Assembly: GCA_016213775.1 (NCBI GenBank)
Contig: JACQZR010000287.1
Location: 1-53,719 of the forward strand
Source: Acidobacteriota bacterium
GTDB taxonomy: Bacteria; Acidobacteriota; Terriglobia; Bryobacterales; Bryobacteraceae
DNA length: 53,719 nt
Reading direction: 5' to 3'
The notes below the pieces were generated by a model, which saw only the letters and a list, made by a program, of their open reading frames with translations, was not told where the DNA came from and ran no database searches. How positions within the stretch are numbered: the first letter of the stretch is position 1; the number at the start of each line of letters is the position of its first letter. A program made the position numbers and the translations under genes. Positions 16,211 to 27,008 of this stretch are shown here, one piece after another.

Positions 16211-17428
16211 ATGGAAAGAGCACGGATGAACCGGCGCGACTTGTTTCGCGCGCTCGCGGCTCCCGCATCGGCGGCCATGCTGGACGCGATGTTCACGGCG
16301 CAACGCACCGATGCGGCTGCCGTCGGGCCGAACGACAAGATCAAGGTGACAAAGATAGAATCGTTCGTGCTGCGAAACAGTTGGGTGTTTGTGAAGATCT
16401 CCACCGATGCCGGGGTGACCGGCTGGGGCGAGATGTTGAAGGACGACGCGAAAGCGTGCGCGGCGGGCGCTTTGGAAGTGTCGAATTACCTGGTGGGGCA
16501 GGACCCGTCAAAGGTGGCGTTTCACTGGCAGGCGATCCATCGCGGCACGTTCTACAAAGGCGGTCCGATCAAAACCGCGATCCAAAGTGGGATCGACATG
16601 GCGCTGTGGGACATCAAGGGCAAGATATATGGGGTCCCGGTGTACAAGCTGCTCGGTGGGCCCACCCGCGACCGGATTCGCGTTTATGGGCAGGTGAACG
16701 AGAAGACCGGCGTGAGTGCGATCAAGGTGATGCTGCGCGGCACCAAGCGCGCCCCATTCAAGTACAACGAAGGCATGCAGATGGTGGAGGAGGTGACGGA
16801 GCGGTTCAAGGCGCTGCGCCAGAAATTGGGACCTGCGGTGGACATCGGGGTCGAGTTTCACGGGGCGATCCAGCCGCCTACCGCGCTGTCGATGATGAAG
16901 GCTCTGGAGCCGTATCACCCGTGGTTTTACGAAGAGATTGTGCCGCCGTTGAACGTGGACGTGATGGCGGAGTTGGCGAAGAAGACGCATGTTCCAATTG
17001 CGACCGGGGAGCGCATTTTTACGAAGTGGGGGTTCAGGGAGATTCTGGAGAAACGCGCGGCGATGATCCTGCAACCGGACGTTTGTTACGCGGGCGGAAT
17101 CACGGAACTGCGGCTGATCGCGGGGATGGCGGAGGCTTATTACGCACCGCTGGCGCCGCACAACCCGAACGGGCCGTGCTCACTTGCGGCAAGCCTTCAG
17201 GTGGCGGCGTCGATTCCGAATTTCCTCATTCAGGAACGGGGCGATGCTGAGCACATGGACATTCTGGCGAAGCCGCTGCCGCCGCTGGTGAACGGTCATC
17301 GCGGGCTCCCAACGGAGCCGGGGTTAGGGATCACGATTGATGAGAACAAGCTCGCCAAGCTGGTGGGCGAGCCGCGGCCGTATAGGACCGTATTCGATTC
17401 CGACGACGGGTCGGTGGTGGACTGGTAG
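16211..17428 (+). CDS. Tat-exported galactonate-dehydratase-like enolase-superfamily protein
   Basis: 405 residues with a twin-arginine start (MNRRDLFRALAAPASAAML after a six-residue lead). The domain resembles D-galactonate dehydratase: GVEFHGAI (near 217) holds the first metal ligand and neighbouring His, WFYEEIVPP (near 240) the second, ATGERIFTKWGFREIL the third, and LAPHNPNGPCS the catalytic His region near 317. The exact sugar acid cannot be told. AGGAGG is 5 bases before ATG 16211, only 9 bases after the receptor stop, so the two are one operon. It differs from the first enolase homologue in all active-site motifs, so they are not recent duplicates. Confidence 0.9.
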   Translation: MERARMNRRDLFRALAAPASAAMLDAMFTAQRTDAAAVGPNDKIKVTKIESFVLRNSWVFVKISTDAGVTGWGEMLKDDAKACAAGALEVSNYLVGQDPSKVAFHWQAIHRGTFYKGGPIKTAIQSGIDMALWDIKGKIYGVPVYKLLGGPTRDRIRVYGQVNEKTGVSAIKVMLRGTKRAPFKYNEGMQMVEEVTERFKALRQKLGPAVDIGVEFHGAIQPPTALSMMKALEPYHPWFYEEIVPPLNVDVMAELAKKTHVPIATGERIFTKWGFREILEKRAAMILQPDVCYAGGITELRLIAGMAEAYYAPLAPHNPNGPCSLAASLQVAASIPNFLIQERGDAEHMDILAKPLPPLVNGHRGLPTEPGLGITIDENKLAKLVGEPRPYRTVFDSDDGSVVDW

Positions 17429-17440
17429 GTTCATTAGGAC

Positions 17441-17507
17441 ACCTCCTTTCTTCTGACCGGGGGACTCACGGTCACTACACCGTGAGTCAAGCCCCGGGAA
17501 AGGAGGT
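17441..17507 (+). promoter_or_regulatory. Long stem-loop that sequesters a perfect Shine-Dalgarno
   Basis: Three perfect stems stack: ACCTCCTTTC (17441-17450) with GAAAGGAGGT (17498-17507), CCGGGG (17457-17462) with CCCCGG (17492-17497), and GACTCACGGT (17463-17472) with ACCGTGAGTC (17479-17488) around a CACTAC loop. In all 26 pairs, one 6-base bulge on the left and one AAG bulge on the right. The closing stem pairs every base of AAGGAGGT, the ribosome site 6 bases before an ATG at 17514. The structure is seen directly; a switch-like translational role, or a terminator for the enolase mRNA, is inference. Confidence 0.65.
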
Positions 17508-17513
17508 AAACCA

Positions 17514-17582
17514 ATGCAGATTCGCATTTGCGTCAGTCTAACCCTGACGCTCGGACGGTTCCGTATTACGAAACCAGAGTAG
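17514..17582 (+). CDS. 22-codon open frame behind the sequestered ribosome site
   Basis: ATG at 17514 to TAG at 17580-17582 gives a 22-residue basic peptide (begins MQIRICVSLTLTLG, ends FRITKPE). The ribosome site AAGGAGGT with 6-base spacing is the best in the window. It ends 53 bases before the end of the convergent YVTN gene, so it leads into no other gene. It may encode a small peptide, act as a leader, or be a by-product of a repeat. No family recognised. Confidence 0.4.
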   Translation: MQIRICVSLTLTLGRFRITKPE

Positions 17583-17635
17583 CAGGACGACGGAGAAAGT
17601 CAATACACCTTCGCCCTTCGGCTGGGTGTTTCGCA

Positions 17636-18766
17636 CTACCGCATGATCCCTGTGTGCCCGGTGGAATAGCGTCCTGGCTGCGGCCAAACACACAGCCCGT
17701 GCGGGTTCCTTCCCACGGGAATCTTCGCAATCAGCTTTCCGGTGGAAGTGTCGATGGCATACACCACGTGGTGATAGCGGCCGGAAATCCAGAAGACCTT
17801 GCCATCCGCCGACAGGTTGCCCATGTCAGGGCTGCCGCCCCCCGGAATCTCCCACCTTTTGGCGACCTTGCGCGTTGCCAGGTCGATCAGGCTGATGGTC
17901 CCTTCTTTCCGATTAGTGACGTACAGGTACTTGAAGTCCTTGCTGACGTACAAGCCGTGCGCGTTCTTCCCGGTGGGAAGGAACCCAATCACCTTCATCG
18001 CATCGCCATCCACCAGGTGTACCCCGTGCGCGTCCATGTCCGCCACGTAGAAGACCTTGCCGTCCGGCGACAGCTTGATGTCCTGTGGCATGCCGCCGCC
18101 CGGCACGGCGAGTTTGCCAACGAACTTCATTGCCGCAGTATCGATCTTCACCAGTTCTCCAGAAAACTCACACGTCGCCAGGAAGTACTTTCCGTCCGCG
18201 GAGAAGTCGAGGTGGTCCACACCTTTGCATGGCACCGGCACGCTCTTCACCAGCGAAAAAGTCTTCGGATTGCGGAAATCGAGCCTCTTCAACCGCTCGG
18301 CTACAATGATGGCGTGCTTGCCGTCGGGAGTGTAGTACATGTTGTAGGGGTCGGCCACCCGGATCGTCTTTACGAACAGCCCCGTCTTCGGATCAATCTG
18401 CGTTAACGTATCGTTGAGATCGTTGGTCGCGTACAGCATGTTCAGGTCATAGGAAGGGACCACGTGCTGCGGCTCCTTGCCCGCGGGTATGGTGCGGATC
18501 ACGGCCATCTTCACCGGATCAATCACAGTCACCGAATTGCCTTGCGCGTTTGGCACGTAGATCAACTGCGGATGGTTGCGGATCCAGGGTTGGATCTTGT
18601 CGGGGGTGGTTTCGGAATAGATGTTACGCGGATCAATCACCGGCGGCATCCCTGGCAATGTGTCGATCTTCGCGGACTGTGCATGAACAGTCGATTCCGG
18701 CGACCAGAGGTTGCATCCAGTCAGCAACAAAGCAGTGGAGAGTAAGCAGGCAAACGTTGGTTTCAT
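17636..18766 (-). CDS. YVTN-type beta-propeller lipoprotein
   Basis: 376 residues. The start MKPTFACLLSTALLLTGCN has a lipobox (LLTGC), so the protein is probably lipid-anchored. About seven repeats of 40-45 residues follow, with the typical pattern of name/ID strand plus SPDGK or SADGK turns and YVTN-like strands (LIYVPNAQGNSVTVID, YLYVTNRKEGTISLID, HGLYVSKDFKY). Such propellers bind ligands or act near surface enzymes; no catalytic residues are evident. It converges on the enolase cluster and has its own promoter region upstream of 18766. Confidence 0.88.
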   Translation of the reverse strand: MKPTFACLLSTALLLTGCNLWSPESTVHAQSAKIDTLPGMPPVIDPRNIYSETTPDKIQPWIRNHPQLIYVPNAQGNSVTVIDPVKMAVIRTIPAGKEPQHVVPSYDLNMLYATNDLNDTLTQIDPKTGLFVKTIRVADPYNMYYTPDGKHAIIVAERLKRLDFRNPKTFSLVKSVPVPCKGVDHLDFSADGKYFLATCEFSGELVKIDTAAMKFVGKLAVPGGGMPQDIKLSPDGKVFYVADMDAHGVHLVDGDAMKVIGFLPTGKNAHGLYVSKDFKYLYVTNRKEGTISLIDLATRKVAKRWEIPGGGSPDMGNLSADGKVFWISGRYHHVVYAIDTSTGKLIAKIPVGRNPHGLCVWPQPGRYSTGHTGIMR

Positions 18767-26786: not shown

Positions 26787-27008
26787 ACGGCACACCTACT
26801 CTCTCCCGTGACGGCCAGACTGAACCGGCACCTTCCCATTCCGCCGCGTGAAACTTCACTTCCACGTGCTCCGAGGATGTGCTCACGCGTGTTGCTGGCG
26901 GCTGCGCTCGTCGCATGACATCGACAATTATTTTGTCGAGATGCTACCTTCAAGCGCTAACGCTGAAGCGTATCGTTATTACGATCCCACGGACGGGCAC
27001 GGGGAGGC

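Follow-up and report, generated by a model that had tools for sequence, protein, structure and literature searches.

The 26-pair stem-loop that prompted this study lies in a stretch of 53,719 nucleotides (the window) and, on the evidence of alignment, is part of a decayed copy of a repeated element of ~290 bp. On balance, we take the window to hold a broken copy of a dispersed module working like a type I toxin-antitoxin locus and resembling hok and aapA in its RNA architecture. The module is likened to type I systems and called type I-like, not a proven member of them.

The hairpin and the decayed copy in the window

Direct reading of the sequence led to a stem of 10+6+10 pairs with one bulge per side, which seals AAGGAGGT, and to an ATG at 17514, 6 bases past GGAGGT, from which a frame of 22 codons runs to a TAG ending at 17582. 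The description in an earlier note on this DNA, a 26-pair stem-loop masking a ribosome site 6 bases before an ATG, was correct to the base. The stem-loop is contained in the minimum free energy (MFE) structure of 17428-17600 (ViennaRNA), a segment whose fold has a z of -4.3, with 0 of 200 dinucleotide shuffles equally stable. The features assigned in the window are as follows (SD, Shine-Dalgarno).

17430..17605, plus strand: decayed element copy (alignment with five copies; BLAST and peptide matches elsewhere in the genome)
17441..17450, plus strand: 5' arm of the SD lock, anti-Shine-Dalgarno ACCTCCTTTC (sequence read, MFE fold)
17457..17497, plus strand: middle and upper stem with a 6-nt loop (sequence, MFE fold)
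17457-17462 and 17492-17497, plus strand: middle stem, CCGGGG with CCCCGG (sequence read, MFE fold)
17463-17472 and 17479-17488, plus strand: upper stem, GACTCACGGT with ACCGTGAGTC (sequence read, MFE fold)
17498..17507, plus strand: 3' arm GAAAGGAGGT with the Shine-Dalgarno AAGGAGGT, pairing with 17441-17450 (sequence, MFE fold)
17514..17570, plus strand: remaining authentic part of the ORF, MQIRICVSLTLTLGRFRIT, 19 codons (profile positions 1-19, E 1.3e-6; alignment)
17571..17582, plus strand: chimeric tail KPE* from the antisense-promoter region (alignment with other copies)
17576..17581, minus strand: putative antisense promoter, -10 TACTCT with TGC just upstream (pattern match, alignment)
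17598..17603, minus strand: putative antisense promoter, -35 TTGACT at 16-base spacing (pattern match, alignment)
26957..26986, plus strand: 30-base stretch like the ORF interior (LTLKRIVITI), a possible remnant (peptide profile E 0.06, weak)

The window copy was aligned with five others (c31, c36, c38, g3a and c41). It starts directly after the stop codon of an enolase-family gene (BLAST edge 17430), so that the sense promoter and the leader, with the initial ~25 nt of the RNA, are gone. After CGTATTACG a further stretch of about 55 nt (54-56 depending on the copy compared) is missing, a deletion which took the C-terminus of the peptide and the 3' hairpin, and the sequence resumes at ACCAGAGTA within the antisense promoter. 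The frame then stops at a TAG inside that promoter and yields MQIRICVSLTLTLGRFRITKPE versus the usual end TIRxG. Since the deletion joins the ORF to the antisense-promoter region, the 22-codon frame is chimeric, and its earlier reading as a real peptide fails on its final codons. The antisense promoter motif is an exact pattern match (17576-17603, minus strand). As judged from the alignment, the toxin side of the window copy is dead and the putative antisense promoter alone is intact.

The stretch at 26957-26986 stands apart from the rest of the element and ends at GATC, like a truncated copy on contig C130. Breaks at the palindrome ATCGTnnTnACGAT may be recurrent, as the break in the window copy lies slightly before the GATC point, by a few bases. 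Just after the element, an ACACC...GGGTGT hairpin followed by TT (17605-17632) was noticed by eye; it may act as a terminator separating the enolase-family gene from a convergent YncE-like gene.

Copies in the home genome and in relatives

A BLAST search of the home genome (G000; 10,956,185 bases in 314 contigs) with window positions 17420-17680 led to 14 places of 76-100% identity, the window's own included, and more were found with the peptide profile, placing the hairpin beyond chance also as a repeat. The profile added two copies on C178, one each on C224 and C130, and the stretch 26957-26986; on C224 a second, decayed copy was spotted by eye. The home genome thus totals ~19 copies, located on C28, C66, C106 (2), C127, C130, C178 (2), C206, C216 (the window), C224 (2), C243/C202 (3), C271/C283 (3) and C287. 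The C243/C202 and C271/C283 groups, situated at contig ends, probably each represent a tandem array of three copies that the assembly broke up, and for that reason a few of the pattern matches given below may be one copy counted twice. By inspection, 13 copies have all parts and six are damaged or incomplete. The six comprise the window copy, the second C224 copy and the truncated C130 copy; C106:49751 and the first C283 copy, both without a sense promoter and the latter also with its SD altered to GCAGG; and a further C283 copy, its SD altered to GTAGG, which runs off the contig end.

The neighbouring C283 copies (L034 6536-6930) differ in their SD point changes, GCAGG versus GTAGG; the first keeps its whole ORF, and of the second only the first ORF bases precede the contig end. 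Both are possibly silenced toxin genes. The second C224 copy (L098 3740-3960) directly follows an intact one and has its SD and start region deleted and its antisense promoter intact, a pattern of loss resembling that of the window copy.

Copies are frequently clustered or in tandem, and several contigs end at them. Neighbouring ORFs, named by eye, include an ATP-synthase-like subunit, a sulfatase, glycogen synthase, TonB-type receptors, a LysR regulator and argininosuccinate synthase, and no transposase was noticed among them. The C206 copy is closely preceded, on its upstream side, by a PIN-domain-like ORF (L040 241-651, named by eye) that could be a type II toxin.

Outside the home genome, a full copy searched against 61 genomes led to three further places in the congener G003, and an RNA model built without G128, a genome of another genus, detected two copies there (E 2.8e-14 and 1.7e-11). 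Both relatives are Acidobacteriota metagenome-assembled genomes. Stem pairing and peptide are conserved in relatives, so that the lack of conservation named in the earlier note as refuting its proposal was not borne out. Its suggestion of a mobile repeat carrying a ribosome site stands as far as dispersal is concerned; mobility does not follow from the copies. Copies at the G003 loci L042 and L043 adjoin a permease gene, which we take to be of the ADOP permease type, and a PadR-like regulator gene (both named by eye), and at L043 the leader of the downstream gene, GGAGGGATAACGCGATG, resembles the 5' start of the element.

Wider searches with RNA models covered 237 genomes of the family, 257 of the order, 399 of the class and 396 of the phylum, in overlapping sets; only the best 7 to 13 candidates per genome were scored, under strict filters, so that weak relatives can be missed. 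Among these candidates, convincing matches occurred only in G000, G003 and G128. Matches in G089 (L047) and G625 (L136) have no peptide and were ascribed to chance by inspection, G122 (L048, L065) gave a partial weak match, and one weak match in G003 was the opposite strand of a known copy. With the peptide profile, 50 of the 257 order genomes were listed at E up to 0.5. The best match beyond the three genomes (G218, E 0.0026) has no hairpin, and the remaining ones were taken as chance. An exact-pattern scan of GTDB species contigs returned G003, G128 and two further loci, one from Paenibacillus and one TonB-like, both chance by inspection. A search of 50,697 phage and 72,556 plasmid records with one peptide gave nothing at E up to 5, viral contigs contained no match to two DNA patterns, and five peptides were assigned to 0 families of Pfam and NCBIfam. 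At the gathering threshold, Rfam recognized only three tRNAs in the window and left the hairpin unmatched; one full copy gave four sub-gathering matches.

Anatomy of intact copies

At its left end, an intact copy carries TGAGAG (or TGAGAA)-N17-CACTA, a putative sense promoter, and 6-7 nt past it GGAGGG or a close word at the predicted RNA start. The lock hairpin follows ~35 nt past this start, with CTCCTTTC pairing with GAAAGGAGG and an upper stem on top, and then come the ATG, the ORF for 23-25 residues, a G+C-rich 3' hairpin without a U-tract behind it (by eye), and CCCTCC, the complement of the 5' GGAGGG. The right end bears a putative antisense promoter, TTGACW-N13-TGN-TACYCT or a motif close to it, on the opposite strand and directed into the element. 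An integron attC site or a piece of a group II intron, prompted by the paired copies, was dropped as an assignment once the peptide and the promoter motifs had appeared.

Pattern searches linked both motifs to the element in the home genome. All 13 matches of the antisense-promoter pattern lie inside element copies, as do all 12 matches of the sense pattern extended by GAGGG, and either pattern when reversed has 0 matches. Without GAGGG, the sense pattern gives 15 matches, 12 in elements and three elsewhere; each of the latter has a start codon within ~150 nt downstream (by eye), with one of the frames only 39 codons long. In G003, the antisense pattern matches three times, each inside an element copy, and the sense pattern not at all. 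In G128, neither pattern has a match. One match of the antisense pattern in G002 lies upstream of an apparent ordinary gene with a ribosome site. The outside matches suggest, weakly, that both motifs are real promoter types of the lineage.

In one C178 copy (L097 4503-4690), an ATG lies upstream of the usual start and behind GAGGG. From it runs a longer frame, in register with the peptide, that spans 71 residues between stops in the profile search. It could be a leader frame, and it was not seen in the other copies looked at.

The peptide

Intact copies encode a peptide of 23-25 codons with the consensus MRIRISVSxxLTLxRIVxTIRFG*; the G128 peptides are MRIRISVRATITLTGITLVIRFG and MRIRISVGVVITLTGITLAIRFG. 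The coding signature, proposed for checking in the earlier note, was analysed in 19 distinct ORFs, a set which takes in diverged copies and the other genus and leaves out the window copy, all copies cut by contig ends, the truncated one on C130, the second one on C224 and a G003 copy whose ORF is identical to another. Differences by codon position were 1155/535/1802. The synonymous fraction was 0.415 against 0.182 in column shuffles (sd 0.046, max 0.333), with 0 of 1000 shuffles reaching the observed value and no stops, although small palindromes inside the ORF make RNA and peptide constraints overlap, which the shuffle test cannot fully separate. A first set of 14 ORFs had led to 0.424 against 0.195 (sd 0.053, max 0.415; 0 of 1000), a pN/pS of 0.45 and pN below pS in 89 of 91 pairs. 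In addition, three copies have an insertion of 3 nt that leaves the frame intact, and TAA, TAG and TGA replace one another as stop codons. Taken from its codons, the ORF is under protein-level selection.

The 19 peptides have a net charge of +3 to +5. Their best 15-residue Kyte-Doolittle means range from 0.38 to 2.12, and hydropathy reveals no obvious long hydrophobic (membrane) helix in any of them. The residues follow an alternating pattern, the best hydrophobic moment being larger at 170 degrees (9-residue window) than at 100 degrees (11-residue window) in all 19; compared to shuffles of the same residues, the fraction for the 170-degree moment is under 0.05 in only three of the 19.

The Shine-Dalgarno lock and RNA folding

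RNAalifold analysis of 15 copies led to 42 pairs, six of them with changes on both sides, of which two are in the upper stem, four in ORF hairpins and none among the five lock pairs; the covariation term was only -0.16. Both C178 copies, the C224 copy and the truncated C130 copy have a different upper arm and keep the lower CTCCTTC/GAAGGAGG stem, the ATG and the peptide, and the G128 copies lock GGGAGAG with other letters. Persistence of the lock through replacement of the upper arm is, in our reading of these alignments, better evidence for it than covariation. The earlier claim of a built-in anti-SD that hides the ribosome site in front of a tiny frame is borne out. Permutation pointed in the same direction. 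Own lock arms gave -17.8 versus -16.3 kcal/mol for permuted ones, with 55 of 20000 permutations as good, and own RNA ends -12.2 versus -11.5 for swapped ones, with only 416 of 20000 as good, relatedness being ignored in both cases.

Folding and pairing probabilities were calculated for 18 copies with RNA ends set by hand. All 18 RNAs fold far below their shuffles (z -4.6 to -10.0), the predicted mean unpaired probability of the SD is 0.06, and 16 of 18 are predicted to have a paired 5' word, with an unpaired probability of at most 0.23; the two G128 RNAs, weakly closed at their ends, do not follow this. When the RNAs were cut in silico after the stop codon, the 5' word was partly freed (0.09 to 0.36) and the SD stayed locked (mean 0.06 to 0.06), so that activation by 3' trimming as in hok or aapA is not predicted.

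A proposed type I toxin-antitoxin-like module and its alternatives

A repeat family, a conserved coding peptide, an SD lock, complementary ends and convergent promoter motifs can all be read from the sequences. Transcription, antisense action, toxicity and the opening of the lock are what we infer from them, in the following way. In intact copies the sense promoter would give an RNA of ~220 nt starting with GGAGGG, predicted to fold nearly closed by pairing of the 5' GGAGGG with the 3' CCCTCC, in which a strong hairpin would seal the SD of the 23-residue cationic peptide. Because of the end pairing and the sealed SD, the full-length RNA is proposed to be translationally silent. The convergent promoter at the opposite end would give rise to an antisense RNA that spans this ORF and sequesters or destroys the mRNA, and the peptide would be made only once the antisense RNA runs out and the mRNA is remodelled. 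The tandem and clustered copies fit this picture, as type I toxins have been searched for by the criterion of tandem duplication (PMC8309996, excerpt). Against it counts the peptide without a long hydrophobic helix, since membrane type I toxins have an alpha-helical transmembrane domain (PMC8309996, excerpt), and so, as far as the motifs and predicted folds tell, do the weakly closed G128 copies, which match neither promoter pattern, and the G003 copies, which match the antisense pattern alone. The lock pairs free of double changes, the SD predicted to stay shut after 3' trimming and the 3' hairpin without a U-tract count against it too.

That last point about the peptide is also the strength of a rather unlikely alternative, a riboregulated gene for a non-toxin small peptide (a regulator, a membrane or an antimicrobial peptide), locked, released by stress or a signal, tuned by antisense RNA and amplified as dose matters. 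Selection and lock are supported and toxicity is not, and the peptide is cationic without a long hydrophobic segment, unlike the helical type I toxins; the combination of antisense promoter, end-closed mRNA, tandem copies and decay is however what type I loci usually show. Less probable again is a MITE- or REP-like mobile or structural repeat whose hairpins act at the DNA level or in transposition, with the ORF a passenger. REP- and MITE-type repeats are multi-copy, intergenic and rich in strong hairpins, and so is the element, which is dispersed beside unrelated genes, sits at the ends of several contigs and has palindromes even in its ORF, where four pairs show double changes. Yet the ORF has a coding signature and codes for a selected peptide, the upper arm is replaced while lock and ORF stay, and the ends were seen by eye to be two unlike, facing promoter motifs and not terminal inverted repeats, with no transposase noticed.

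The earlier idea of a locus-specific thermosensor or metabolite switch for a peptide in the trailer of the enolase-TonB operon has the sealed SD of the window in its favour and is nevertheless highly improbable, as about 20 further places, next to unrelated genes, carry this lock, intact copies bear their own promoter motifs at both ends and the frame in the window is chimeric; the stability of the stem also looks too high for simple thermal switching. A thermosensor or riboswitch of the enolase operon was set aside on account of the same element in many unrelated places. A question concerning the window copy only is whether the relic serves as a transcription end between the enolase-family and YncE-like genes, or as an antisense-only copy dampening its sisters in trans. 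Such a role is compatible with the type I-like module and conceivable, although we lean against it. The window copy has lost its sense promoter and 3' end and matches the antisense promoter exactly, and the second C224 copy, without SD and start, keeps that promoter as well; there are however only two such copies, and pairing in trans must tolerate mismatches, the best sister places being 82-90% identical over the aligned part.

Comparison with known systems

Hok is about twice the size of the peptide encoded here, and ibs/sib and ldr loci are present in several tandem or dispersed chromosomal copies. With hok/sok the element shares an inert full-length mRNA, a sequestered SD and an antisense partner (PMC6733600, excerpt), all of them predicted for the element; it differs in that no conserved leader ORF was noticed by eye and in that its peptide is without an evident transmembrane helix. 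The aapA3 mRNA of 225 nt has SD-sequestering hairpins, long-distance 5'-3' pairing and a small antisense RNA (PMC6733600, excerpt). An end-closed RNA of ~220 nt, a hidden SD and a facing antisense RNA, here predicted, together with a tiny cationic peptide make the element similar to aapA/IsoA of Helicobacter (PMC6733600, excerpt), whereas its peptide is unrelated in sequence and not helix-like. Moreover, the local hairpins of aapA3 are transient (PMC6733600, excerpt), in contrast to the SD lock of the element, predicted to be stable and shut after 3' trimming. Charged ends have been described for the AapA1 peptide (PMC8309996, excerpt). Very short RNA-repressed peptides, such as IbsC with 19 aa, link the element to ibs/sib and ldr of E. 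coli, from which it is set apart by sequence and RNA architecture and by the alpha-helices that IbsC and LdrA form (PMC8309996, excerpt).

Before adding a cyanobacterial case of its own, one study named Proteobacteria, Firmicutes and Tenericutes as the phyla with type I systems (PMC12390103, excerpt). No paper joining 'type I toxin-antitoxin' and 'Acidobacteria' was found in the open-licence library searched. A marine survey matching 'type I toxin' and 'Acidobacteriota' counts orphan toxins and antitoxins by phylum and, in the excerpt at hand, does not describe the element, and a further literature search, judged by its listings, led to nothing like it.

If the type I-like reading is true, type I systems would be extended to a new phylum via this Acidobacteriota lineage, and a type of peptide other than the membrane helix would be added to them. 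The many natural copies, some of them dead, would provide a ready-made mutant series for the evolution of the lock, the end closure and the antisense control.
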